This document shows, one piece after another, positions 36,724-51,305 of a DNA stretch of 64,000 nucleotides; the stretch's first letter is position 1; each line of letters opens with the position of its first letter. Position numbers and translations under genes: made by a program. Source of the stretch: an uncultured Pseudomonadota bacterium (GTDB lineage Bacteria; Myxococcota_A; UBA796; GCA-2862545). A model generated the notes under the pieces. That model saw only the letters and a list, made by a program, of their open reading frames with translations. It did no database searches and was not told the origin of the DNA. The stretch is taken from the NCBI GenBank assembly GCA_913061235.1, contig CAJXTB010000006.1, positions 124,001 to 188,000 on the forward strand, in the 5' to 3' direction.

Positions 36724-36804
36724 ATGTTGATTGGCGCGCCCCCCAGAACGGAGGCGGCCCGGTCGTCTTTCCCACACCCCATAGTTGTCACCCAGAATGC
36801 ATGA
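36724..36804 (+). CDS. Possible 26-codon leader ORF overlapping the kinase start
   Basis: ATG at 36724 opens 26 codons (MLIGAPPRTEAARSSFPHP onward) to TGA at 36802-36804, overlapping the kinase ATG at 36797 by eight bases. A GGAGGAG lies 36708-36714, 11 bases upstream, a little far. The kinase gene has no good site of its own, so this small frame might couple its translation. It may equally be chance. Confidence 0.22.
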   Translation: MLIGAPPRTEAARSSFPHPIVVTQNA

Positions 36805-39800
36805 GCTTCCGCCGAACACGCCTGGACCACGAGGTCCGTACCGAGTCGGTGCATTGCTTGGCACAGGGGCTCTCGCTCATGTGTATGAGGGAGTGAACAC
36901 GGTCACCGGGGACTTGGTTGCCATCAAGGTACCTAAGGCGGATGTCCCCTTTGGTGCGTACCATTTACGAGCTGAGTATCGGGCGCGCATCGGGGTTCAT
37001 CACGCGAATCTAGTATCGGTTCGTGAGCTGTTGGATGGACCCGAAGGGCCGTGGCTCATTCTGGGACGGGCCGACGGCGTGCCTCTGTGTGACTGCATTC
37101 ACTCGGGGTTGTCAGACGCCTTCATTTCCAAGGTCGGCGAGGAGGTACTCGCTGGAGTTCGCGCGCTGTACAATTTGGGCAGATGGCACGGTGATATTAA
37201 GCCAGCGAATATTATTGTGGGGCCAGATGGGTCCGCACAATTGGTCGATTTCGACTTGTCTTGGTCAATAATGGACGACTGGGATGGTGCGGTTGAGTGG
37301 GGTGTCGGAACGCCTGACTACGCGGCTCCAGAAGTCGTGCTCGGTGCGCGCCCGAATGTTGCGAGCGACCTGTTTAGTCTCGGCTTGGTTCTGTGCGAAG
37401 CGGTCCTTGCTGGGGCTCCCTTTGGCTCTCCGCTCGAGCGTCCCTTGGACGGTCTGGGGCGCTTGATTGTGGACTTGCCAGACCACACAGAACCGGCGCT
37501 TGTCGCGCAAATCCGGCAACTATTGGGACCTGTCGATGAGCGGATGCAGGCGCTTGGGACCGCTGTGCGGCCGGCGCAAGACTTCTTCGGTCGTGAGGAG
37601 GAGCTTGAGCGTCTTGCGGGGGTACTGGAGTCGCGCTCCATGACGCACGTCGTTGTCAACGGCCCTGCTGGAGTGGGGAAGACGCGCTTGGTCAATGAGT
37701 TCCTGCGTTCGGTGATTGAGACGCGACCGGGCGTGGTGTGGAGAAGCCGCTGTCACCCGTCGGCACGCGTGCCGTTTGCGGGTGTCGATGGGTGGGTCGA
37801 AGGCCTTGGCCGGCACTTGGCGCAGCATCCGGACCTGCTGCAAGACAAGACCATGGCGCGCGCCGTCGGTAAGCTGCGCGCTGTGTTTGGACCGCTCTTG
37901 CCGGACGTTCTGTCTGTGGCGTCAAGCGCGGACCAGGTTGTACAGGCAGCGGCACAGTCCCTTGGGATTGCCGTGTCACTCGTCTCCCAACACCTGCCGG
38001 TGTACCTGTGGTTAGACGATGCCCACTGGATGGCGGGCGAGGCTGAGGTCTTCGTTGAGACGCTTGTGCGGCTTCGTCCCGACAATGTGGTGATGGTGGT
38101 CACTACCCGACAGCTAGACGTCGACGCAGACGTTGAGATTACGCTGCAGGACTTGAGTGAGGATGCTGCACGGCAGTGGAGTGAGTCGGTCGGCCGAGAG
38201 CTGACCCTAAACGGCAGAGCCAACCCCATGTTGTTGGGCATGGCGCTGGAGTCGAGTCAGTCGTCCTTTGATGCGTCGGCCGTGGTGCGTGCTCGGGTGC
38301 TGAACGTCGCCCAGCAGGCCCATGATGTGCTGGTCCTCGCCGCTGTCGCCACTACGCCTCTTGGCCGATCGGTGCTCGATGCGTGTGGCATCAGTGACCG
38401 TGAGGTCGAGCATGCCCTCGGTAGCGGCCTGTTGGTGGTCGGGCGAATGGATGGAGAGCCGGCGGTGGAGCTGGTTCATGACCTGGTACGGGTCACAGTG
38501 ACCACTGTCTTGCAGACCCGCGAAGTCGAGCAGGGATTGTTGGACGTGCTCTTGCGGACGGCTCCTGACCGGCCGGCGCGTGTGGCTCACCACATGGCCA
38601 ACCTCCATCACGACGACACGGCGGTCTGGGCCCTGCGTGCTGCTGAACAAGCGCGCGTGTCGTTTGCTTGGGAGCAGGCCAGTCGCTGGTTTGACGTGGC
38701 GGTCGCCCACGGTCATCCACCCAATGATGTGGACTGGCTTCGCGCCGAGCTGCTGGGCCAGAGTGGTCGGGTAGCAGACGCCCTTGTGGCGTGGACAGCG
38801 GTGGCAGAGACGTCGACGTCGAAGAAGCAGCGGGTGTTGGCCTTGGGCCATGGCGCAGCGCTGGCCTATGGAACCGGCGACATGGCCAAGGGGCACTCCC
38901 TAGCGGGGCCTGCGGTTCGAGCGCTGGGAATGCAGCTGCGGCCGACCATGGTGGGGGCCTTTGGGCAGGCGGCTTGGTGGACGGTGCGACGGCTGCTGTG
39001 GTCGGCGACGGGCGGCAAGCATCAGCCGGATGATGCCGAGGCTCCTCTGCGCTTGCGGTTGGCCTGGACTATCGCCGGTGCCATGTGCTCGGTGGATGGC
39101 ATCCGAGGAATCGGATGGCTCACCCGTCAACGCTACGAGGCTGAACGCTATGGGGATGCCGTTGACCTTGCCCGAGGTCGTGCTGTCGCGCTCATTCTCG
39201 ACGCGTCGCCGGGGTTGGCGGCGGATGAGTTCGACCGGCGTCTGGACCAGATGCAGGTCTGGCGCGGCCAGTCGACGTCTGCGCTGGAGCGTGCCACCTA
39301 TGACATGGGCAGCGGGTATGGGGCCTTTGCGTCGGGTGAGACCGCGCATGCTCATCGTCTACTAAGTGGGTCACAGATGGACTTTGCGTCGTCGTCCTAC
39401 AGTGGGTGGGAGAGCCGACTTGTCGATAAGCAGCTGGCATGGACTGCGCAGTACCAAGGCGAGTTCGACCGGATGTCTTCCCTCGGAGATGCCGTCGCCA
39501 CACGCTGCGAGCGGGTTGGCAATGTCGTGCCAGAGCTGCAGATGCGCCTTGTTACGCAGGCGTATTATTCGCTGGTGATCGACGATGTTGAGGCTGCTGA
39601 CCGTGAAATCACCGAGATTCAGCTGCGTTCTGGGGACAGCGAGGCGAGCGGTGTCCGGTATTTCGCCCATCACGCTCGCGCATTGGAACGGTTGTACGTA
39701 GGAGACTCTGCTGGTGTGCCGGGGGTTGTTCGCCAGATGATGGGAACGAGTTTCCGCCTGGAGACACTGCTTCAGGCGCGGATTGCCTCAACCATGACGC

Positions 39801-40171
39801 TGGCTCTTGCTGCGGCACAACAGCCGGATCCCAAAGGGCTAAAACGACTGCAGACTCTGACTCGAAAGCTTGCGAAAGAACGGTCTCGTTGGCCGCTCGC
39901 GTGTGCGAGTGGACTCGCGGGTTGTGTGGCCTGGATGCAGGAGGATGCGGCGGAGAGCGAGCGCGCTTACCGCGAGGCTGTGTCTCAGTTCGAGGCGATT
40001 GGAATGGGTGCTCTTGCGGATTCCTGTCGCGCACATTTGGGTACCTTGTTGGGTTCGCAACTCCCACTGCTGCCTCTGACCCAGCGTGGGGTAGTCGACC
40101 CCGTCCGTTTCCTGAGAATGACCATGCCCGGTCCCGCGAGTCACGCTGAATTCCAGGGGAATCCAGCATGA
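36797..40171 (+). CDS. Ser/Thr protein kinase fused to an AAA ATPase and TPR-like region
   Basis: The ATG at 36797 gives 1124 aa; a TTG at 36785 is an alternative and neither has a clear ribosome binding site. Residues about 15-255 are a Hanks-type kinase: glycine loop LGTGALAHVYEG, Lys44 in VAIKV, Glu60, and HGDIKPANI (131-139) with catalytic Asp133. The motif is HGD, not HRD, and the metal-binding motif is DFD (151-153), not DFG. Residues about 280-530 are an AAA_16-type ATPase (FFGREEELERL, GPAGVGKT, WLDDAHWM). The rest is helical and TPR-like (pairs of AWALRAAEQAR, ALVAWTAVAE). Such chimeras occur in Myxococcota and actinobacteria. Its substrate is unknown; the preceding regulator or LuxR protein is a reasonable candidate. 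Confidence 0.88.
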   Translation: MHELPPNTPGPRGPYRVGALLGTGALAHVYEGVNTVTGDLVAIKVPKADVPFGAYHLRAEYRARIGVHHANLVSVRELLDGPEGPWLILGRADGVPLCDCIHSGLSDAFISKVGEEVLAGVRALYNLGRWHGDIKPANIIVGPDGSAQLVDFDLSWSIMDDWDGAVEWGVGTPDYAAPEVVLGARPNVASDLFSLGLVLCEAVLAGAPFGSPLERPLDGLGRLIVDLPDHTEPALVAQIRQLLGPVDERMQALGTAVRPAQDFFGREEELERLAGVLESRSMTHVVVNGPAGVGKTRLVNEFLRSVIETRPGVVWRSRCHPSARVPFAGVDGWVEGLGRHLAQHPDLLQDKTMARAVGKLRAVFGPLLPDVLSVASSADQVVQAAAQSLGIAVSLVSQHLPVYLWLDDAHWMAGEAEVFVETLVRLRPDNVVMVVTTRQLDVDADVEITLQDLSEDAARQWSESVGRELTLNGRANPMLLGMALESSQSSFDASAVVRARVLNVAQQAHDVLVLAAVATTPLGRSVLDACGISDREVEHALGSGLLVVGRMDGEPAVELVHDLVRVTVTTVLQTREVEQGLLDVLLRTAPDRPARVAHHMANLHHDDTAVWALRAAEQARVSFAWEQASRWFDVAVAHGHPPNDVDWLRAELLGQSGRVADALVAWTAVAETSTSKKQRVLALGHGAALAYGTGDMAKGHSLAGPAVRALGMQLRPTMVGAFGQAAWWTVRRLLWSATGGKHQPDDAEAPLRLRLAWTIAGAMCSVDGIRGIGWLTRQRYEAERYGDAVDLARGRAVALILDASPGLAADEFDRRLDQMQVWRGQSTSALERATYDMGSGYGAFASGETAHAHRLLSGSQMDFASSSYSGWESRLVDKQLAWTAQYQGEFDRMSSLGDAVATRCERVGNVVPELQMRLVTQAYYSLVIDDVEAADREITEIQLRSGDSEASGVRYFAHHARALERLYVGDSAGVPGVVRQMMGTSFRLETLLQARIASTMTLALAAAQQPDPKGLKRLQTLTRKLAKERSRWPLACASGLAGCVAWMQEDAAESERAYREAVSQFEAIGMGALADSCRAHLGTLLGSQLPLLPLTQRGVVDPVRFLRMTMPGPASHAEFQGNPA

Positions 40172-40193: not shown

Positions 40194-43100
40194 CTACGTG
40201 CGCCAGGTGAGGCCAAACTGGACGTGTGTCTTGTCCTGAAGGCCCTCGGACAGGCGATTCCATTGGATAGTGGGGCCTGAATCGATGGTGAGTGACCCGA
40301 GGCCGGCGGCGACGCCATGACGCACGCCAGCGTGCAAGACCAGCTTTCCTCGACGCGTGTCGATTTCCTGTTCGAGCCCCACTCCGAGAGAGAGTCGCGG
40401 GGCTGCCCAGCGAGCGTCGATGCCTTGGATGGCGCTTGCCCACTGGCCGTTCAATCGGAGCCTCATGGTCCATGGGTCAGTCGGGAGTTTCCAGTCGATG
40501 CTACCCAACACACGATGTGGACGAAGACTGTTGGTGAGTCCTTGAATCTCCTCAATATCCGGGTCTTGAAGGGCGCCATCTACCGCCGTGCGAGCACTCA
40601 CCAGCCAGCTGACCTTGGCATGCCAGCGCCGGCTCTGTTCCTTCTCCAGCCACAGTGAGCCGGAGGGGCCCCGACTGCTGAGCAGGCGGCCAGACCCGGT
40701 GACAGCGAGACCGTCCATCGACGTTGCCCAGGTGGTGTTGTCATCGAGCTGCCCGCTGGTGCCAAGCCAGAAGTCCTCCAAGAGTTGGAGGCTCACCGTG
40801 CCCGCCACTCGTCGCTGAATGGGCAGGGTAGAGACGTCCCCTGGGAGCGCGCTCAAGTCGGGCACGGTCTGTTCGGCCACGAGAGCCCCCTTGACCTTCC
40901 CCCGTGGCAAGGAACCCCGCAGAGCGAGACGACCTGTCGGAGCTGTCGTACCGCTTCCTGCCACTCCTGCGGTTCCGTCGAGATGCCACAGGTCTGCGAG
41001 CTGAAGCCGGGCAAAGACCTCGGCGCGGCCAATCCAGTTGCGTGTGTCGTCTTCGAGTCGGATGTGTCCAAGTCGTACCTGTCCACCGAGCTCCCAACGC
41101 GAATGGATGATGTGTAGGTCGCTCGTTGCGATGGCCGCGTGTCGAAGAGTCCTTCCGACGCGTAGGCTCGACCCATCCACGCGGTTGGTCAGGACCAGCG
41201 AGGGAGACGTGAACCACTGCCACACACCGCTCACGTCGCGCCGGTCGAGACGCTTGGCATCGGTATCGATGTTCTGAATAGCGGCGTCAGCGGTGAATCG
41301 GTGCTTGGCAGTCGGCTGATACGTCAGGCGCGTGCCGCCGTGTTGTGCGTTCGTCGGGCCCCAGGAGTTGTGGTGCATACGTGCGAGCAACCAGAGTCTG
41401 TCGCGGACAATGGAGCCGCTGGCCGCTCCGTGTGCTTCGTACTGTCCACCTGTTCCGCCGGCACCGCCGAAGTCGAGTGCGATGGCGTTGGAGCCAGAGG
41501 GGCCGTTGGGTGCGGGCGACGGCGCGGTACGCAGCTCCGGCTGTACGGATGATGGGCGGTCCTGGTTCACGTTGAGCGAGAAGGTGCCCGTCACCGGGTC
41601 GGTGATGGTGATGCCGTCCAGCAGGTAGGTGTTCTCGGATGTCGCACCCCCGGCGATGTTCGGGTTGCCCCCGCCACCCACGACTCCGACGGCCATGCCC
41701 ACGGCAGAGTCGTAGCTTCGGCCTGCCGGAATCTGGTTGAGGAAGTCTCGGGTCAACACCTGACCGCGAGTGGTGCTCGACGTGTCCACGCTTGGGTTCT
41801 GGTACTCAACCCGTCGCACGTCGTCTACGGTGACAGAGGCCGGTTTGTTCGTGCCTTGCTCGGGCACGTCCACGTCTGCCAGGGCGTGGCGTCCGTCGCC
41901 ATCCGGGCGGGATTCAACCGCGACTAGGCTCGTCCATGGGCTCAAGATGCCGTACTCAAGCGCCAAAGCGGTTGCTTTTAGACGAGGGTCGGTGCCCGTC
42001 GCCCAGCCGTCATGCAGTAGCGCTTCGAGGTTGCGTCGTGCCCAGGCCGCTTGCAGTCCGCGTCCTCGGTCGACTTGGGTGGGGGTGACCCGGCGCGCCC
42101 ATCGCTGGCCGTTGAGGCGACAGGAGACCTCTACCCACGTGGGTGTGTCTCGGTGTTGAGCGGCAATGACCACCGGAATGCCGGCAACCAGGGGGCCCGG
42201 TTCGGTTGGCCAGGCTTGAACACCGGTGCTCCACTCCACTCGGACGTCGGTGCATTTGGCATTGTCCACCGCGGTCAGGAGGCGGTCAGTGACGCTATCT
42301 GAGGTGTCTCCGGGCAGGTAGTAGGAGCTGGTTCCGTTGGCGGCGACGGCCAGGCGGTCGAGCAGCGCACGGTTGGGCGACGCGTTCACACCCAAGATTG
42401 CCAGGTCTGCGCGCTGACCCGCACTCGCCAGGGCGGTGAGTGAGCCGTCTTCGTCGGTGACGAGGCCGTCTGTGATGAGCACCATGACCCGACGCATGGC
42501 GCCGTCATGTGGGAGTGCTGTGGCGGCGCTGAGCGCGCTAGGTAGCAGCGTTCCGCCGCTCGGGCCCTCCTGGGCGAGGCGCTGGCGAACGAGCTCGACG
42601 CCGCGAGCGCCGGATGCTGGGGGCAGGCTCCGAATCGACTGGCCAAAGGTCAGCAGGCCGATTGTGTCTTCGGGGCCCACGTTGGCGAGCAGGTTGTTGG
42701 CAACGCCCATTGCGCGTCGCCAGGGGGTGCCGCTCATGGAGCCGCTGGTGTCGAGAACCAAGACCCACTCGACTGCGCCAGAGTCACCGCGCGTGGGGGC
42801 TGGGCCTTCCATCACAAGCAGGCTGTGGTCTCCGCTGGTGATGGCGGCGGCTTGGGTGTCACCTGTGTTGTTCTCCCAGCGAAGAATCATGTCGCCGGAT
42901 GCGTGGCGGTCCTGCCAGTGCACACCGGCATGACTGTCCTGCGTTGTGACGTTGACGCCTGTGTGGGTTGGACTGTGGAGTGAGGCAATGTCGAAGCCGG
43001 CTTCGATGTCTGCGTCGACACGCACCGGGTACGGTTGCCGGACGGTGAACTCGTTGTGCGTGCCGAACCCCGTTGCGAAGCGCGGCGCCACATTGGTGGG

Positions 43101-43520
43101 AACCACAAGCTCGAACTGTCCGCCCGTTCGGGTCACTGGCCACAAGACTCGCAGCTGTACCTCGATGTCTTGGCCGGCAGGTACATTGGCCAGCTCTTGC
43201 TGGAAGACCCCACCGGCGACCTGAGTGGTGAGGCCCGCGATTTGGCCGTCGAGTGCGGCGACCTCGAACTCTTGCCGTGCTTGTCTAGACTCGCGAAGCG
43301 CTGAATGAATGATGGTATCGCCGATGACCATTGTCATGTCATCGACCACGCCTTCGTGAGGCAGGGCAAACATGAACTGGGCGCGCTGACCCGCCTCAAC
43401 GGGACCGGTGAACCTCTGGGTGACAATCGCCTCTGCGACGGGTCCCCGCACGGCAATATCCCAGCGCACTTCTTCCATTGGCAGGCCCGCAAGAGCCGCC
43501 GCAACCAGGACAATCCACAT
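40194..43520 (-). CDS. VIT-VWA protein fused to a TonB-dependent-receptor plug and beta-barrel-like region
   Basis: The ATG at 43520 follows GGAGG. The 1108-aa protein has a short signal-like start (MWIVLVAAALAGLP). Residues about 15-150 are a VIT domain (VTQRFTGPVEAGQRAQFMFALPHEG). Residues about 235-410 are a VWA domain with the MIDAS motif DTSGSMSG and later ITDGLVTD. After a linker, about 570-640 contain a TonB plug (TRDFLNQIPAGRSYDSAVGM, SENTYLLDGITITDP, TGTFSLNVNQ) of Oar type. The remaining 460 residues alternate strand and turn like a shortened outer-membrane barrel and end in FGLTWRT. VIT-VWA pairs normally bind metal or protein ligands; TonB receptors import substrates. The combination is unusual. 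It ends 22 bp from the convergent kinase gene. Confidence 0.87.
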   Translation of the reverse strand: MWIVLVAAALAGLPMEEVRWDIAVRGPVAEAIVTQRFTGPVEAGQRAQFMFALPHEGVVDDMTMVIGDTIIHSALRESRQARQEFEVAALDGQIAGLTTQVAGGVFQQELANVPAGQDIEVQLRVLWPVTRTGGQFELVVPTNVAPRFATGFGTHNEFTVRQPYPVRVDADIEAGFDIASLHSPTHTGVNVTTQDSHAGVHWQDRHASGDMILRWENNTGDTQAAAITSGDHSLLVMEGPAPTRGDSGAVEWVLVLDTSGSMSGTPWRRAMGVANNLLANVGPEDTIGLLTFGQSIRSLPPASGARGVELVRQRLAQEGPSGGTLLPSALSAATALPHDGAMRRVMVLITDGLVTDEDGSLTALASAGQRADLAILGVNASPNRALLDRLAVAANGTSSYYLPGDTSDSVTDRLLTAVDNAKCTDVRVEWSTGVQAWPTEPGPLVAGIPVVIAAQHRDTPTWVEVSCRLNGQRWARRVTPTQVDRGRGLQAAWARRNLEALLHDGWATGTDPRLKATALALEYGILSPWTSLVAVESRPDGDGRHALADVDVPEQGTNKPASVTVDDVRRVEYQNPSVDTSSTTRGQVLTRDFLNQIPAGRSYDSAVGMAVGVVGGGGNPNIAGGATSENTYLLDGITITDPVTGTFSLNVNQDRPSSVQPELRTAPSPAPNGPSGSNAIALDFGGAGGTGGQYEAHGAASGSIVRDRLWLLARMHHNSWGPTNAQHGGTRLTYQPTAKHRFTADAAIQNIDTDAKRLDRRDVSGVWQWFTSPSLVLTNRVDGSSLRVGRTLRHAAIATSDLHIIHSRWELGGQVRLGHIRLEDDTRNWIGRAEVFARLQLADLWHLDGTAGVAGSGTTAPTGRLALRGSLPRGKVKGALVAEQTVPDLSALPGDVSTLPIQRRVAGTVSLQLLEDFWLGTSGQLDDNTTWATSMDGLAVTGSGRLLSSRGPSGSLWLEKEQSRRWHAKVSWLVSARTAVDGALQDPDIEEIQGLTNSLRPHRVLGSIDWKLPTDPWTMRLRLNGQWASAIQGIDARWAAPRLSLGVGLEQEIDTRRGKLVLHAGVRHGVAAGLGSLTIDSGPTIQWNRLSEGLQDKTHVQFGLTWRT

Positions 43521-43578
43521 CCTCTACCTCCACCCATATCGGTGCCAGGTGAGCGCACATGTAAACGTCCGGCGCTGT

Positions 43579-44193: not shown

Positions 44194-44319
44194 GTCGTCG
44201 TCCTCCTCAAAGGGGGGTCTGCTATCCGAGCGACCGCCTTCGGTCACGTCGTGTCTCGCTGCCGAAGAGAACTCGGGGGTGGGCGTCATGCGCATATCCC
44301 TGACAGTTGGAGGATAGAA

Positions 44320-46266
44320 ATGCGTGGTAGCCCGATCCTGTTGATAGCCGCTCTTTCCGGTTGTGCGGCTCACTCGGGCCTTGTTCGTGATGGCAACCAA
44401 GCCGCTCGCTACGGCTCATGGGACTCTGCGGTGTCCTCTTACGAGCAAGCCGTTCGCATGGCTCCAGACAACGAACGCCTTGCTGCCAAGCTGGACTCCG
44501 CCCGAACCGCACAGGAGATCGACCGAGCACGGCGGCTGTCGGCGGCTGCGACGGATCTGGCCTCTGCGATTGACCGGCAAGACTGGGGCGCTGCGGAAGG
44601 CGCCATGTCCCGCGCTCGAGATGCCGACGCAGTGGTCGCGAGCGAGATGGGCATGGAGGCCTACCAGTTCCTAGGCCCGGCAGCGATGAAGCACCTGCGC
44701 GCGGGTGAGCTCGAGCCGGCGTACGGACTGTCACGTGTGGCAGTGGTTGTTCATCCCGAAGCGGGCGCCTACCGTCTGCTGGGCGACGTCACCACAGCCC
44801 TTCATGCCCGCGTTGATTCACTTGCGGAGCGAGGCGACTGGGCATCTGCACTCTCGTGGGTTGACTGGATGGACGCACGCACAATCGCCTTCGACGCCAG
44901 TGCGCGTCGAAGTGAACTCAAGCACGACTGGGCGGGGTTCATTGCGGGCCAGGCGAAGACCGCAGAGTCCATTGGCAACCTTGGGTCTGCCGCGGTCCGT
45001 TACCACGAGGCCTTCGGTGTAGACGGCGACCGCACCTGGCTTGCCGAGCGGGACCGCGCGGTGAGAAGCGTTGAGACAAGCCTGCGCTACGACGTGCGGT
45101 GGCCCGCAGAGAGGGGAGCGATGGATGTGGCGGTGCAGCAGGCGGCTCAGAGTGCACTGGCGACCGACGGACGTCTGGCACTCATGTCTAGCGGCTCAGC
45201 GATTGCGTCGGTCGGCATTGATGTGCAGCCACATGGCTGCGCCAACACGTCGGTCACGACGACGGAGTCGGTGCGCGTCTTGGTGGGAACCCGTCAGGTG
45301 ACGAACCCCGAATACGCGCCAGCTATGCGGTCCCTGCGCGATGCTGAGCGCAAGCGGTCTGAGCTGGTTCGTGCCGGTACGACTGCGCAAGATGCGCTGG
45401 AGTTGGCGACAGCAAGCGTCCGAACACTGCTGGAGTACACGCTTCCCACTGTACGCGGAGCGGCGGAACGTGCCGAAGATGACGTGGCCTGGGCACGTCG
45501 GCGCGTTGCTGAGGCGGAAGACGCGCTGGCCTCTGCCGAAGCCACGTGCACTGACCCGACGGTGGTCGACCCGGAAGTCGAGCGTCTGCGCGTGGACCTG
45601 ACCACTGCACAGCGCCGATTCTCCGAGAGCGAGCAACAGGCCAGCGGACCGCGTCGGGCGCTACAGACAGCACAAGACCAGCTTCACACTGCACAAGCGG
45701 CGGTGGACCAACAGCGCCGCAGTGTGGCGAAGGCTCGCGCCGACATTGAAGAAGGTGTTCGCGCTGTCAGTCAGCAGACCGCCCGCGTGGACCGTACGCC
45801 GTTGACCGTCACACAAGACGTCTACGAGCCGTTCGCCTACCCGGTTGAGGAGTGGACTCGTACGTGTTCATGGACGGCGTCGGTACAGCACCGTGAGGGC
45901 AGCCAGGACCTGCGTCCGTCGTGGACTGAGACCCGTGTGACCACCGACAAGCGCCATGAGGCCTACCCGCATGCCGGTGTGGGCGCAGATCCGTTGAACT
46001 TTCCGGCAAGGGACGACCGTATGCAAGCGGCGGCCGAGACTTCCCTCGGCCGTGCAATCGCTACGCATCTGACGGATTCTGCCCATGATTACTACACATC
46101 GCTGTGGGACGGCGCCTTGGAGCTGTCGCCAGATCATCCGGCAGCGGCGCTGGATGCTTGGCTCGCAGTGCTGCGGCTTGACCCGACTGTTGCCGATGAC
46201 ACCGGGCTTGCTGCGCTGCGCAGTCGGGCTGGGGTGTCGGATACCTCGTGGATGCGCAGGCGTTAG
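44320..46266 (+). CDS. TPR and coiled-coil lipoprotein of unknown function
   Basis: The ATG at 44320 follows GGAGG at six bases, and the protein begins MRGSPILLIAALSGCAAH with lipobox LSGC. The 648-aa protein has TPR-like helices in its first third (NQAARYGSWDSAVSSYEQAV, AMSRARDADAVVASEMGMEAYQ), and a long Ala/Arg/Glu coiled coil (about 345-515). The C-terminal part (about 520-648) has TRTCSWTASVQH and ends with a TPR-like HPAAALDAWLAVLRL. In a mean position at 310-335 a LMSSGSAIASVGIDVQPHGCAN region occurs. The membrane-anchored helical build suggests a scaffold of an envelope complex. No family recognised. It is divergent from the methyltransferase gene. Confidence 0.8.
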   Translation: MRGSPILLIAALSGCAAHSGLVRDGNQAARYGSWDSAVSSYEQAVRMAPDNERLAAKLDSARTAQEIDRARRLSAAATDLASAIDRQDWGAAEGAMSRARDADAVVASEMGMEAYQFLGPAAMKHLRAGELEPAYGLSRVAVVVHPEAGAYRLLGDVTTALHARVDSLAERGDWASALSWVDWMDARTIAFDASARRSELKHDWAGFIAGQAKTAESIGNLGSAAVRYHEAFGVDGDRTWLAERDRAVRSVETSLRYDVRWPAERGAMDVAVQQAAQSALATDGRLALMSSGSAIASVGIDVQPHGCANTSVTTTESVRVLVGTRQVTNPEYAPAMRSLRDAERKRSELVRAGTTAQDALELATASVRTLLEYTLPTVRGAAERAEDDVAWARRRVAEAEDALASAEATCTDPTVVDPEVERLRVDLTTAQRRFSESEQQASGPRRALQTAQDQLHTAQAAVDQQRRSVAKARADIEEGVRAVSQQTARVDRTPLTVTQDVYEPFAYPVEEWTRTCSWTASVQHREGSQDLRPSWTETRVTTDKRHEAYPHAGVGADPLNFPARDDRMQAAAETSLGRAIATHLTDSAHDYYTSLWDGALELSPDHPAAALDAWLAVLRLDPTVADDTGLAALRSRAGVSDTSWMRRR

Positions 46267-46316: not shown

Positions 46317-47081
46317 ATGTCTAGCCCAACATCCGAGTTCTTTCGCGGTGCGCGCACTCTGCTACGCTCGATTGCGTATCTATTTCGGAACGCCAGCTTA
46401 ATACCGTGGATGCTGGCGCCGGCCGTACTGACCATCACCGTCATCAGTGTGGCTGTGGGCGTAACAGCGATGTTCGGCCCGCGGTTGCTCGTCATGCTCG
46501 TCCCGGCACCCGCCGACCCCAGCTGGATGCTTTGGTGGCGTCTGGGCCTGGGCTTGCTGACCGGGCTGCTGATAGTCCTGGCTGTTGCAGCGGGTTGGGT
46601 GTTCGGCAACATGGCCAGTGCACCGCTGTACGACGTCATTGCCGGTAAGGTCGAACGCGAACAATTCGGGTTGACACCGGAGAAAGAGACCTGGGCTGAG
46701 GCCTTCGCCAACGCCGCGCCGAGTATCCGACACAGTATCGCCGGATTTGGCCTGTACGTGGCCGTCATGGTTCCGCTGTTCTCGCTGAACCTGGTCCCCG
46801 GAATTGGCTCGGTCCTCTACACGGTCGCCAGTTTTGTAGCGACGGTATTCTTCGTCAGCCGAGAGCTGATGGATGTGCCCTTGTCTCGTCGACAATTGAG
46901 CTTTCGCGAGAAGCTGGGCTACCTGAAGGAGAACCGGGCGTACATCAGCGGCCACAGTGCTGTTGTGGCGGTCTTCCTGTTCATCCCGTTTGCGAACCTG
47001 TTCGTGACGCCCCTAGCAGTGCTCGGGGCGACACTCATCTTCTGCGACATTGAACGGTCGCGCGGCTCTGAAGACCTCTAG
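46317..47081 (+). CDS. EI24/CysZ-like integral membrane protein
   Basis: The 254-aa protein has about four to five membrane helices: near 22-50 (IPWMLAPAVLTITVISVAVG), 70-95 (LGLGLLTGLLIVLAVAAGWVF), 145-175 (GFGLYVAVMVPLFSL and IGSVLYTVASFVATVFFVSR), and 215-245 (VVAVFLFIPFANLFVTPLAVLGATLIF). The motifs NMASAPLYDVIAGKVE, REKLGYLKENRAYISG and PFANLFVTPLAVLGATL are typical of the EI24/CysZ family, which includes the E. coli sulfate transporter CysZ and proteins of unknown role. It follows the TPR lipoprotein by 50 bases. Its stop lies in the palindrome CTAG shared with the convergent gene. Confidence 0.86.
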   Translation: MSSPTSEFFRGARTLLRSIAYLFRNASLIPWMLAPAVLTITVISVAVGVTAMFGPRLLVMLVPAPADPSWMLWWRLGLGLLTGLLIVLAVAAGWVFGNMASAPLYDVIAGKVEREQFGLTPEKETWAEAFANAAPSIRHSIAGFGLYVAVMVPLFSLNLVPGIGSVLYTVASFVATVFFVSRELMDVPLSRRQLSFREKLGYLKENRAYISGHSAVVAVFLFIPFANLFVTPLAVLGATLIFCDIERSRGSEDL

Positions 47082-48706
47082 TAGACGATGACCACGAGTC
47101 CGTCGTTGCCGAAGGTACCGATCTGAGCCTCGCCAGCGCTTCCGCCGTACTGCTCTTCGGTGGTGCCCGGTGGCGTTCGGGTGCCACCGGCGCTGGTGGA
47201 GAGCACACTGTCGGTCACCAGAGTCCCGTGTGCGAAACCACCGCCGCCGCCGCCGCTGGAGCCGCCGTAGTTGTTGGTGGTGCCAGAGCCACCGCCCCAG
47301 TATCCACCGCCGCCCGCAGCCCCAGAGTAGTTCGAGGGCACAATGGAGCCGCCGTAGAGGGCTCCGCCATTGTTCGACGAGCTGTTGTAGGTGTAGCCAC
47401 CGGCCCCGCGACTTCCGGCTCCGCTGAGCGTACCTGGGTGCCCCCCGTTGAACGAGGAGTTTCCTGCCCCCTGAAGACCTGAGGAACCACCGCCGTTGCC
47501 GCCGGAGCCGTACCCGGTCCCGCCGCCGCCACCGCCCGCTACAAGCAGTGCATCGCCCTGACTGAAGGCGTTGGAGAACACACCAGAGAGGCCGCCTCCG
47601 GTTCCTGGCTGGTAGTTGTTGTTGGCGGTGCCTACGGCGCCGCCGCCGCCATACGTTGTCGACTTGTCCAGGCGTTTACCGCCTTCACCGACGATGACTC
47701 GCAGAGTGGACATGCCCGTGACGTCAACGATGCCCGTTGCGAATCCGCCCGCTCCGCCAGATTGACTGCCTGCTGAGTTGCCGGTGAACCCGCCACCGGC
47801 GCCCCCCCATACGAATACTTCAACCGAGGTAATTCCGTTCGGCACTGTGAAGAACTGGTCAGTGCCCGTGTACAGGAACGTCTCATTGGTTCCACCAGGC
47901 GCTTCGACGTGTTCATTGCGGGCGACGAGTCTGCCTTCTTCCAACACGGCACCGTGGCCAATCACCGCACCACTGCGGATAGTGACGTTGTCGTTGATGG
48001 TGACACCGAATTCAACAGTCACGTCACGGGCGATACGCACGTTCTCGCCAATGCTGACGCCGTCACCAATGACGCTACGCTTGCGAATTCGTGCGGTCGC
48101 CGCAATCGCCGCATTCGTGCCAATGGTCACGTCGGGGCCAATGATGCCCGCGATGTTGCTCAGCTCAGCTGAACTCGCAGCGTCAGCAATCGAAGCGCCG
48201 CGAGCGATCACAGTTCCTGTTTGTACAATCGTGTGGTCGCCAATGGACACCAACGAGCCAACAACGGCTCCATTGAACAGAACAACGTCGTCGCCAATGT
48301 CGCTCGCGTACCCAATCTGAACATCGTCGGCGGCGTCAAAGCGCGCACCGATGGTCGAAGAGCGTCCCAAGAGAACATCTGCGCCAATCTGACTGTCCGG
48401 CCCAATACTGGAACTACGCCCGATAATGGTGCTGGCGCCTATGGTGGAAGCTCCGACCGCTGCCGAGCGACCCGCAATGGTGCTGCGCGGAGCGACAACC
48501 ACGTCTTGGCCGAGAGTGATGTCTGGACCCAGGTTCACAAGCGCGCCAACATGCGCGCCGCTGCCGACGACCAGACCCGTGGTGGTTGTGGCATCTGTGG
48601 ACACACAGGCGGTGTTCGCGTCGAAAAACGAATCAACGCAGCCGTCGTTGTTGGAGTCTGCCGCGGCGGCAGTACTGCCCAAAAGAGCCAGCAAGGATAC
48701 AATCAT
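47078..48706 (-). CDS. Secreted protein: left-handed beta-helix hexapeptide repeats fused to a glycine-rich domain
   Basis: The ATG at 48706 follows GGGGAGAG and gives a signal peptide (MIVSLLALLGSTAAAADS). A short Asp/Cys segment (NNDGCVDSFFDANTAC) precedes about 230 residues of hexapeptide repeats of the LpxA/bactofilin-unrelated left-handed helix type ([IV]GxxxxIGxx: TIGASTIIGRSSSIGPDSQI, VTIGTNAAIAATARIRKRSVI). No acyltransferase catalytic His is obvious. From about 275 to the end is a phage-fibre-like glycine-rich domain (FFTVPNGITSVEVFVWGGAG, VTGMSTLRVIVGEGGK, ending GLVVIVY). In the family such domains form rigid glycine-rich bundles. The likely role is a surface fibre or adhesin. Fusion of the two is unusual; no function can be stated. 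Confidence 0.82.
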   Translation of the reverse strand: MIVSLLALLGSTAAAADSNNDGCVDSFFDANTACVSTDATTTTGLVVGSGAHVGALVNLGPDITLGQDVVVAPRSTIAGRSAAVGASTIGASTIIGRSSSIGPDSQIGADVLLGRSSTIGARFDAADDVQIGYASDIGDDVVLFNGAVVGSLVSIGDHTIVQTGTVIARGASIADAASSAELSNIAGIIGPDVTIGTNAAIAATARIRKRSVIGDGVSIGENVRIARDVTVEFGVTINDNVTIRSGAVIGHGAVLEEGRLVARNEHVEAPGGTNETFLYTGTDQFFTVPNGITSVEVFVWGGAGGGFTGNSAGSQSGGAGGFATGIVDVTGMSTLRVIVGEGGKRLDKSTTYGGGGAVGTANNNYQPGTGGGLSGVFSNAFSQGDALLVAGGGGGGTGYGSGGNGGGSSGLQGAGNSSFNGGHPGTLSGAGSRGAGGYTYNSSSNNGGALYGGSIVPSNYSGAAGGGGYWGGGSGTTNNYGGSSGGGGGGFAHGTLVTDSVLSTSAGGTRTPPGTTEEQYGGSAGEAQIGTFGNDGLVVIVY

Positions 48707-48816
48707 GGTTCTCTCCCCAGAGCCTCTTGCTACCATAATTGGGAGACAAACTGAACTACATTGCTCTCGCTGGAGAGCTGGGGGAACACCCGCTGTACCA
48801 AGGGCAGACCGCTGAT

Positions 48817-48876
48817 AGCTGGCCTGCCAGCTGCCCAAGTCCTCCGTCACGCCATACGCGCACCGATGGACTTGGG
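48817..48876 (-). terminator. Tandem inverted repeats after the bPH2 gene, possible terminator
   Basis: GCCCAAGTCC (48833-48842) and GGACTTGGGC (48868-48877) form a 10-bp stem with a 25-base loop, eight bases after the bPH2 stop. Next to it is the 16-bp near-palindrome AGCTGGC-CT-GCCAGCT (48817-48832). No T-run follows, so it is only a candidate terminator or processing site. Confidence 0.38.
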
Positions 48877-48884
48877 CCGGGTGG

Positions 48885-51305
48885 CTACTTTTCGATCTGT
48901 CCGTAGTGTTCGCGTACGGTGGCGTAGACCTCTTGGTAGTCGGGCACGTTGGCTACAACCAAGTCAGGCATGCTGCTGCCTGCCGTCAGGATGGTGACGC
49001 GACCGTTTCCGAACGCCTTGCCGAGTGCACCCTGGTTCTGCTGGATGGAGTCGATGCGGTTGTACAGCACCGACACGCTGGACTTGAACAGGATGCCGCT
49101 GCGGACGACCACGCGGTCCGTCTCGACCTCGTAGCGGCGCATCTTGACCTGCCAGATGATGAGCGGAATGAGCATCCACAGCGGCGGGAAGAAGATGCCC
49201 ACAATGGCGAGCGTGACCACTTCGTTGGCGAACGCGGGGTGAGAGGTACTGATGACGTCGTCACCTTGCTCGTGCACGCCGTCGATCTGGTTGGGCTCGA
49301 TGAGACCCAGCATCAGAGCATCCAGCGCGTCAACCTTGGCATCAATGCCTTCGATGTACAGACCTTGCAGACTGTATGGCATCTTGAGGCCGCCAGCCCC
49401 GGCGTTCTGCTGGTTCTGTTGCTGGACAATGCGCTCGCCGGCCACGTAGACCTTGAAGGTGCCTTGGTCGGTGAGGGGAATGCGTGTGGACTCCACCTTC
49501 TTGATGTTGTCGTAGCGAACGTGAATGCGCTGCTTGAAGAAGATGCCTGTCTGCGCTTCCATATGTTCGGCATGGAAGGTGAGGCTCTGGCGTCCGGTGC
49601 GGACCGATGCGGCAACAGCTGCGGGAATCGGGAGCAGTAGTAGAATGGGGATGAGCAGCAGGAATAGCCACTTGACCGCGATGGCTAGGACGAGGCAAGC
49701 GAAGGCCAGCATGGCCAAGAAGGCCAAGCCGAAGACGTTCTGAATGAGCCACAACTTGGGGCCGAACGACTGCTTGAGCTGACCTTGCACGGGGTCGTCT
49801 GATGGGATGCCGCACTGACGAAGCAAGGCTGGCAAGTCCAGCTCTTCTTCGATGATGTTGCTTAGGACGAGCGGCTGTGGTGAGCCGATGGACCAGATCT
49901 GAACGGTCACCGTCTTGAACAGTGTGTCCAGCGGATTGCGGTTGATCTGCACGCCAGTGACCTTGTCGTAGGCGTATTCTTGGTGCTTGGCTCCCAAGAA
50001 GGCGTACGTGCTGGCCATGGAGTCGGTGCCAATGGTGAACGTGGTCTTGCTGACCTTGATGGCCATGGCCACGGCGGCAATGAGGAACCCTGGACCGGTC
50101 CAGATGATGCCTAGCAGCGGAACCATTGTGCGCATCATGTTCATGCGGACGGTCGTGGTCCACGCTTCGTCCGGGTCCACCAACGTACGGCTCTGTGGTG
50201 GCTTGGCTCCAGGTTTTCCGATGACGCCGGAATCGGGCTCTCCCTCGGTCTCAGCCTTCTTGGCTTGTTCGGCCTTCTTGGATTCCTTCTTGATGCGGGA
50301 CGCCTTTCCAGCCGAGGCAACAAGTGTGGCGATGGCCTCTTGCAGTGCCGGTCCGTTCGACAGGCGACGGAAGTAGATCTCGCTGCCGCTTCCTTGGCAG
50401 CTGACCTTCACATCGTACAACCCAAGCACTTGGTCGACGACTGTGCGGTTGACGGCGGCATCCGCGATGTTCTCGTAGGGAATGAACGCGTTGTCGCGGG
50501 TCAGGAACCCTTCGGTGTAGGTGACGGCGTCGTTGTGTACGGTGTAGGTTCGACGGGTAATGTCGAGGTAGGTGACGACAATTCCTGCGATGGCCGAGAG
50601 GACGACCACTGCACCAAAGGCCATGGCAGCCACGGCCGCTAGCGAGCCAAGAATACCCGACTGGCTGCCTAGGCCGGCCACTCCGCTGCCCACGAAGAAC
50701 AGCAAGAAGATGCTGCTGGCGATGGCACCAATGATGCGCTGGCCAACAACTGTCATGGCACCGAGCGGGCCCGGTGATTCCATGTGCAGTTCTTCGGTGC
50801 GGCTGAGCGAGTAGCCATTCTGGCGCATGAGCTCTTGCACTTCTTCGTAGACGGCTTCCGGCTCAAGGATGGAGCGGAAGGTAATCTCGGAGGCGGCGCT
50901 ACCGGCGGATTCCACACGGACGTCACCGACCTTGAAGAACTTGTAGCGAAGCCACGGCAACCGCAGACGAACGTGCGTGATGTTGCGGATGTCCAGCTCG
51001 GTTCGGCCGTCCGACAGCATGCCGCCACGGTGTGCGACCAAGTGGTCAGAGTGGATTTCGTAGCGCTCTTTCCGGTAGGCGACGAAGGCGTTGTACGTGG
51101 TGGGTGCCACGATGACGAGCCACGGTGCGGCGGCAAAGATGATCAGAAACCAGGCGCCCGACGCAATCGAGCCAACTGCGATGACCACCGACAGCACGGC
51201 GCAAAAAATTAGCGTTCCGATAATCGGAGGAAGGATGAACGTTGTCTTGACGGGCTTGAATTCGCGGCTTTCCACTGTGACACACTCCACAATTGCGCGC
51301 TGCAT
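48885..51305 (-). CDS. Membrane protein with five bPH2 (YdbS/YdbT-like) units
   Basis: The 806-aa protein begins MQRAIVECVTVESREFKP with a GGGGT upstream of the ATG at 51305. Several hydrophobic helix pairs separate soluble units: near 25-68, 188-245, 390-415, 515-560 and 690-715. Each unit has the bacterial PH2 pattern (Y-x-[IV], then a strand ending in a V/I-D-x-I-x-x-[VI] element): RYEIHSDHLVAHRGG, YTVHNDAVTYTEGFLTRD, FTIGTDSMASTYAFLG, LTFHAEHMEAQTGIFF, and YEVETDRVVVRSGILF. Known members have two or three such units; five is long. Family function is poorly known, with proposed links to membrane stress. No partner gene can be named. Confidence 0.82.
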   Translation of the reverse strand: MQRAIVECVTVESREFKPVKTTFILPPIIGTLIFCAVLSVVIAVGSIASGAWFLIIFAAAPWLVIVAPTTYNAFVAYRKERYEIHSDHLVAHRGGMLSDGRTELDIRNITHVRLRLPWLRYKFFKVGDVRVESAGSAASEITFRSILEPEAVYEEVQELMRQNGYSLSRTEELHMESPGPLGAMTVVGQRIIGAIASSIFLLFFVGSGVAGLGSQSGILGSLAAVAAMAFGAVVVLSAIAGIVVTYLDITRRTYTVHNDAVTYTEGFLTRDNAFIPYENIADAAVNRTVVDQVLGLYDVKVSCQGSGSEIYFRRLSNGPALQEAIATLVASAGKASRIKKESKKAEQAKKAETEGEPDSGVIGKPGAKPPQSRTLVDPDEAWTTTVRMNMMRTMVPLLGIIWTGPGFLIAAVAMAIKVSKTTFTIGTDSMASTYAFLGAKHQEYAYDKVTGVQINRNPLDTLFKTVTVQIWSIGSPQPLVLSNIIEEELDLPALLRQCGIPSDDPVQGQLKQSFGPKLWLIQNVFGLAFLAMLAFACLVLAIAVKWLFLLLIPILLLLPIPAAVAASVRTGRQSLTFHAEHMEAQTGIFFKQRIHVRYDNIKKVESTRIPLTDQGTFKVYVAGERIVQQQNQQNAGAGGLKMPYSLQGLYIEGIDAKVDALDALMLGLIEPNQIDGVHEQGDDVISTSHPAFANEVVTLAIVGIFFPPLWMLIPLIIWQVKMRRYEVETDRVVVRSGILFKSSVSVLYNRIDSIQQNQGALGKAFGNGRVTILTAGSSMPDLVVANVPDYQEVYATVREHYGQIEK

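Follow-up and report, generated by a model that had tools for sequence, protein, structure and literature searches.

The window, that is, the whole 64,000-nucleotide stretch of DNA that we analyzed, carries at positions 40194–43520 a gene whose product joins a VIT-VWA module, otherwise familiar from blood-plasma proteins, to parts derived from an Oar-like TonB-dependent outer-membrane transporter (TBDT). The initial annotation placed a chimera of these parts at 40194–43520, and the coordinates hold as a single 1108-residue frame; the gene, however, lies on the minus strand and runs from 43520 to 40194, the plus strand over this interval being full of stops. Its features, all on the minus strand, are as follows.

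40194–43520, minus strand: VIT-VWA-TBDT fusion gene, 1108 aa, with ATG at 43520 and stop at 40194–40196; homologous along its length to the relatives L034, L035, and L007.
43527–43531, minus strand: likely Shine-Dalgarno sequence GGAGG, 6 bases before the ATG, read from the sequence.
43485–43520, minus strand: probable Sec signal peptide MWIVLVAAALAG, residues 1–12, without a lipobox cysteine; predicted from the sequence, with comparable short signals in relatives.
43149–43475, minus strand: VIT domain, residues 16–124 (Pfam PF08487, 70.8 bits; model match to ITIH1).
42336–42764, minus strand: VWA domain, residues 253–395 (Pfam PF00092, 39.6 bits; VIA Z of ∼22 to solved VWA domains).
42729–42752, minus strand: MIDAS motif DTSGSMSG, residues 257–264; D-x-S-x-S, T324, and D351 are invariant in four fusions.
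41793–41900, minus strand: linker, residues 541–576, at the site expected for the TonB box from comparison with relatives, reading DDVRRVEYQN; pLDDT mostly <50.
41559–41789, minus strand: first half of an Oar-like plug, residues 578–654, identical at 66 of 77 positions to the own-genome TBDT G000:C19.
41481–41558, minus strand: degenerate second plug half, residues 655–680, in which the relatives' IEQIEVLLGG...GGIVNLVT is replaced by RPSSVQPELRTAPSPAPNGPSG; pLDDT 24–30 over residues 651–670.
40197–41480, minus strand: TBDT-derived β-barrel region, residues 681–1108, with ∼19 predicted strands and trimmed loops, from profile comparison and AF2/Foldseek.

The VIT-VWA, linker/plug, and barrel parts of the gene all show a GC distribution over codon positions like that of coding DNA, and full-length homologs rule out chance or a frame artefact as the source of the fusion. 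A PHROGs search returned no match.

The N-terminal half is a VIT domain followed by a VWA domain with an intact MIDAS, as the initial annotation had proposed. Pfam places both well above their cut-offs (VIT, 70.8 bits against 26.5; VWA, 39.6 bits against 23.8), and in the alignment DTSGS (D257), T324, and D351 are intact and invariant in all four fusions. Where a VWA domain has a MIDAS, this site uses Mg2+ to bind an acidic residue of the partner. AF2 modeled the VIT-VWA region confidently from a 38-row alignment (most blocks 80–96), and the top Foldseek match of the model is ITIH1 (6fpy), with an E-value of 4.7e-33 and a VIA Z of 24, although the VIA rows fall mostly on the VWA domain and thus barely test the remaining parts. 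The protein shares the VIT domain, the VWA domain, the MIDAS, and the region that follows them with bacterial VIT-VWA proteins (TIGR03788, “marine proteobacterial sortase target”) and with animal ITIH heavy chains. Unlike them, it ends in a TBDT tail, and it scores 252.3 with TIGR03788, below the cut-off of 551.65. Bacterial VIT-VWA proteins were common in the genomes that we searched, and in the literature we found no functional study of any of them.

Pfam assigned no plug or barrel family to the window protein at E≤0.1, and PF07715 stayed below its cut-off. A profile of 19 stand-alone Oar-like TBDTs nevertheless aligned by hhalign with residues 570–1107 (99.9%, E = 2.5e-35), the last 178 columns alone reaching 96.2% and E = 2.6e-9. 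A TBDT barrel of the Oar subclass has 22 strands; AF2, again with 38 rows, predicted about 19 consecutive strands over residues 681–1107, a rough count because the barrel model is only moderate (pTM 0.52) and is weak at 792–893, 920–950, and 977–998; the plug gave no confident model. By Foldseek, the modeled barrel matches the TBDTs Cir and BtuB in the PDB. The TonB box of the window copy, judged by eye from the alignment, is unrecognizable: DDVRRVEYQN stands at a site that reads EEVVVTAARK in L034 and DMVIEVVGK in the own-genome TBDT, with EEVVVTA, DDVIEVVAK, and EVIEAVG among the relatives. The window protein also lacks the CarboxypepD_reg N-terminal extension and carries VIT-VWA at that place, while the stand-alone paralog L036 carries PF13620.

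The missing Pfam assignments are put into perspective by the relatives. L034 passes the cut-offs for Plug (27.0 against 23.9), OMP_b-brl_4 (31.6 against 30), and TonB_dep_Rec_b-barrel (28.2 against 27), so that PF25183 and PF00593 are both passed, whereas in L035 and L007 the plug falls below the Pfam threshold. Along the series L034, L035, L007, and window copy, the second plug half disappears stepwise. L034/L091, with a full plug and a TonB-box-like EEVVVTA, is the better-preserved relative. Among the fusions, sequence comparison shows the strongest decay in the window copy, which has lost its second plug half and about 220–260 residues of its plug-barrel part and has trimmed loops and an unrecognizable TonB-box motif; because it fails both the Pfam plug and the TonB box tests, it is better named a TBDT-derived fusion than a TBDT. 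The domain scan suggested with the initial annotation therefore found VIT and VWA in the window protein but missed its plug and barrel, an outcome that formally counts against the chimera and that we overrule because L034 passes the plug and barrel cut-offs. The Oar-like nature of the plug was borne out by the alignment of the plug half with Oar-like TBDTs, and the short barrel-like region proved to be a shortened TBDT-type barrel by profile comparison, interval lengths, and AF2, the structure prediction having supplied barrel strands but no confident plug.

Using a model built from four fusions, we found the same fusion in three further genomes of the window's family (G014, where it is cut by a contig end, G019, and G020), making four of 21 family genomes together with the window's own genome, G000. 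With this model, a sample of 379 genomes from the phylum yielded no complete fusion outside these four, and no fusion was found in 398 genomes of Caulobacter's phylum. In most relatives, VIT-VWA proteins and Oar-like TBDTs also occur as separate, stand-alone proteins. Stand-alone TBDTs span 714–733 residues between the plug motif and the C-terminus, as against 469, 509, and 498 in the three complete fusions, and interval lengths agree among the relatives (35/35/35, 39/38/39, 41/41, 48/48), the window copy being shorter still in most intervals. The four fusions form one group in the VIT-VWA tree (support 88/86), and the three in the barrel tree group together (99/99). The shared barrel deletions and the VIT-VWA tree therefore indicate, at the level of sequence, one origin of the fusion within the window's family. 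The placement of the window copy itself is uncertain because it forms a very long branch in both trees, and a quick tree of 104 rows separated it from the remaining fusions and placed it next to a different long branch. A fifth candidate, G018:C111, is cut by a contig end and lies outside the fusion clade of the VIT-VWA tree; it was not counted.

Fusions of a comparable kind recur in another phylum. In a sample of 396 Acidobacteriota genomes, several VIT-VWA matches continue into a plug. L199 (1651 aa) joins VIT-VWA to a complete Oar barrel (567 bits); L191 carries a complete plug (41.6 bits; cut-off 23.9) and the start of a barrel, where the contig ends; and L192 has a plug (26.9 bits; same cut-off) without a barrel. 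With a plug model built in this analysis, L208, L194, and L198 resemble L192, as does L193, which is cut by a contig end. Six further VIT-VWA proteins (L195, L203, L217, L218, L231, and L239) score 46.9–66.3 with TonB_C, above the cut-off of 24.6. These Acidobacteriota proteins have the same N-terminal module as the window's family, joined to Plug, TonB_C, or a full Oar barrel, but differ in that several lack a barrel and in that they are scattered over several parts of the VIT-VWA tree away from the window's family, and are therefore probably separate fusions. Their counts are not frequencies, because most of the proteins were picked for a high score or for extending past VIT-VWA. The search for the same fusion elsewhere, which the initial annotation had named as the support to look for, thus yielded three relatives with the same domain order in the family and independent ones in Acidobacteriota. 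As side observations, the six TonB_C-containing proteins end in or contain this domain, and so look like TonB-like proteins with a VIT-VWA head, while L194:6497-9391 comprises VIT-VWA, a plug-like stretch, and a tail that by eye resembles helical repeats, without a barrel.

In most fusions, the plug follows that of the TBDT resident in the same genome. In a 31-row comparison, the plug half of the window copy shares 83% with the stand-alone TBDT of its own genome versus at most 71% with those of other genomes, and the own-genome TBDT is the best plug match for the fusions of G000 (0.83), G019 (0.82), and G014 (0.72), three of the four family genomes; for G020 it ranks only fifth. The plug-half tree splits the fusions to their own-genome TBDTs, pairing fusion and TBDT in G000 (99/99) and in G014 (97/81), and monophyly of the fusions was rejected (p-AU 0.013). 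We considered recent gene conversion of the window plug half and rejected it, since, where residues are identical, the fraction of matching codons is 0.53 for the own TBDT and 0.48–0.59 for others; given these similar values, any conversion must be old. Synonymous codons are near saturation between the two genes, which implies either an old conversion held by selection or similar selection on both. In BtuB, the ∼50 residues downstream of the TonB box are the force-labile part of the plug (PMC11658791), and by analogy we infer that the plug half kept in the window copy corresponds to this force-labile half.

Among the Acidobacteriota plug fusions, the own TBDT is the best match in G550, G400, G509, and G452, but not in G518 or G558; the result for G452 says little because this genome as a whole lies far from the others. 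In G550, where the fusion gene is cut by a contig end, the fused plug is identical to that of the own TBDT at 82 of 82 residues, with 84% codon identity. An assembly chimera was rejected as the cause: the DNA identity is 90% over 387 bases, and since the copies differ at 13 synonymous codons within the 82 identical residues, they look like real separate copies. The tracking of a resident plug makes the partner of a fusion testable, and in the window's genome this partner would be TBDT G000:C19.

We found no paper describing a fusion of VIT-VWA to TonB-system parts, and sequence comparison presents the fusion as a variant of the TBDT/Oar kind. When 34,893 TBDTs were classified with Pfam 31, their N-terminal parts fell into five architectures, a small set made up of CarboxypepD_reg, STN, and AMIN, with VIT/VWA not among them (PMC6434023). 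The fusions share with the Oar subclass (M. xanthus Oar, PF13620-PF07715-barrel) the plug motif, the barrel family (OMP_b-brl_4 in relatives), and an extra domain before the TonB box, but have VIT-VWA in place of CarboxypepD_reg and a shortened barrel, and the window copy has half a plug and an unrecognizable TonB box. As in the STN-signaling transducers FecA and FpvA, a periplasmic module would precede the plug; VIT-VWA is, however, unrelated to STN, and no sigma/anti-sigma pair was recognized among the scanned flanking genes of the window. With regard to the 12-strand translocator of type V autotransporters, the window barrel appears to be of TBDT descent, with ∼19 strands predicted in a moderate model.

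The best reading of these data, to which we give about an even chance, is that the window protein is a periplasmic VIT-VWA receptor or adaptor on a TBDT-derived outer-membrane barrel, with both its membrane insertion and its binding of a partner being predictions. All that precedes the plug in TBDTs is periplasmic, and the N-terminal extension of Oar has been treated so (PMC6434023); since VIT-VWA precedes the plug, it should be periplasmic as well. In such a protein, a VIT-VWA module of the inter-α-trypsin heavy-chain type would have taken the place of the CarboxypepD_reg extension in an Oar-type TBDT. Sec would export the protein, its C-terminal part would form an outer-membrane β-barrel, and VIT-VWA, on the periplasmic face, would most likely bind a protein partner through its Mg2+-dependent MIDAS, by analogy with VWA domains generally. 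The barrel would first have been a channel, as it may still be in L034/L091 with their intact plug and TonB-box-like motif, and would in the window copy be reduced to an outer-membrane anchor or a passive pore. The near-identity of the first plug half to that of the resident stand-alone TBDT would be maintained, presumably since one and the same partner has to accommodate both.

Several alternatives compete with this receptor or adaptor. The protein could be an active TonB-driven export or import channel in which periplasmic VIT-VWA selects cargo or gates the plug, comparable to Oar with PopC. Oar does secrete PopC and requires its plug and TonB box for this (PMC6434023); L034/L091 keeps EEVVVTA with a Pfam-level plug and barrel, L199 has its complete Oar barrel behind VIT-VWA, VIT-VWA is also fused to TonB_C, and in the window's own genome 15 frames, including the C19 paralog, exceed the Plug cut-off and TonB_C occurs at seven places. 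Against these points, the window copy has neither a recognizable TonB box nor a second plug half and has lost much of its plug-barrel part, and no cargo gene adjoining a fusion was recognized in any genome; we regard an active channel as unlikely. From their sequences, the L034-like proteins look able to pass cargo and the window copy does not; likewise gating of a TonB channel, suggested in the initial annotation, is possible for L034/L091 but unlikely for the window copy because of these losses. The N-terminal module need not matter for transport, since Oar without its extension still secretes PopC, and the protein uptake also suggested found no direct support, the closer precedent being Oar-dependent protein export (PMC6434023). 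Quite unlikely, in our estimate, is a plug mimic acting in trans, whose copied plug half docks into the barrel of the resident TBDT or onto its TonB partner and brings VIT-VWA there. The closest match to the own-genome TBDT in three of four family genomes and in G550, G400, G509, and G452, the plug of G550 that is identical despite its synonymous differences, and the plugs without barrels of L192, L208, L198, and L194 would fit such docking, but gene conversion could by itself produce this pattern with no docking involved, in G518 and G558 the fused plug does not follow the own TBDTs, and the window protein retains its own barrel.

The order of signal peptide, N-terminal VWA domain, and C-terminal barrel is also that of type V secretion, and a VWA adhesin, CglB, reportedly serves gliding in M. 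xanthus, which would favor the adhesion or predation role first proposed for the locus, with VWA displayed at the surface by an autotransporter-like barrel. This role was not supported: a periplasmic VIT-VWA should meet periplasmic proteins rather than prey, which speaks against a surface adhesin, the barrel is of TBDT descent, in which pre-plug parts are periplasmic (PMC6434023), and we saw neither a translocation helix nor a 12-strand unit. We judge a surface adhesin highly improbable. It is also very unlikely that plug, TonB_C, and barrel are merely sticky modules shuffled without a common function and that the window gene is decaying. Its long branch, the progressive loss of plug and TonB box, and the patchy distribution (4 of 21 genomes) would agree with decay, but the 1108-residue frame is open and coding-like throughout with an intact MIDAS, one plug half is kept at 83% despite near-saturated synonymous sites, and the fusions recur with three different parts of one system.

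Such repeated fusion of VIT-VWA, which has joined the TBDT plug, the TBDT barrel, and the TonB C-terminal domain at separate places of its tree, counts as classical evidence that these parts are functionally linked, and it shows where a function of bacterial VIT-VWA proteins could be sought. A broader proposal, which we consider unlikely, is that VIT-VWA proteins serve the TonB system as dedicated partners in the periplasm. Equipped in several lineages with a TBDT of their own, with the copied plug of one particular resident TBDT, or with TonB_C, they would use plug mimicry in trans to couple metal-dependent protein binding to the TonB-driven passage of large cargo, be it export or import. If true, VIT-VWA would represent an undescribed kind of TonB accessory.

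No gene was found to be shared between the neighborhoods of the fusions, and the β-propeller-type gene beside stand-alone relatives (G029, G034, and G045) was not found near them. In three genomes belonging to the same order, related genes adjoin stand-alone VIT-VWA genes (L172:11277-12860, L173:6814-8415, and L174:8883-12698); one of these neighbors is a Reg_prop β-propeller by Pfam, and they may represent a VIT-VWA partner. Around the fusion gene, the window encodes on the plus strand a 1128-residue Ser/Thr kinase fused to an AAA_16/STAND-like ATPase (36785–40171), convergent with it, and a 671-residue protein (44251–46266) with partial similarity to TraC, the accessory lipoprotein of myxobacterial outer-membrane exchange (NF040658, E = 2.8e-15, 56 bits against a cut-off of 500). 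On the minus strand follow a 590-residue protein (47078–48850) with the unusual combination of left-handed β-helix hexapeptide repeats and an ALK/LTK-type glycine-rich domain, and an 806-residue protein (48885–51305) with four bacterial PH (bPH_2) stretches.
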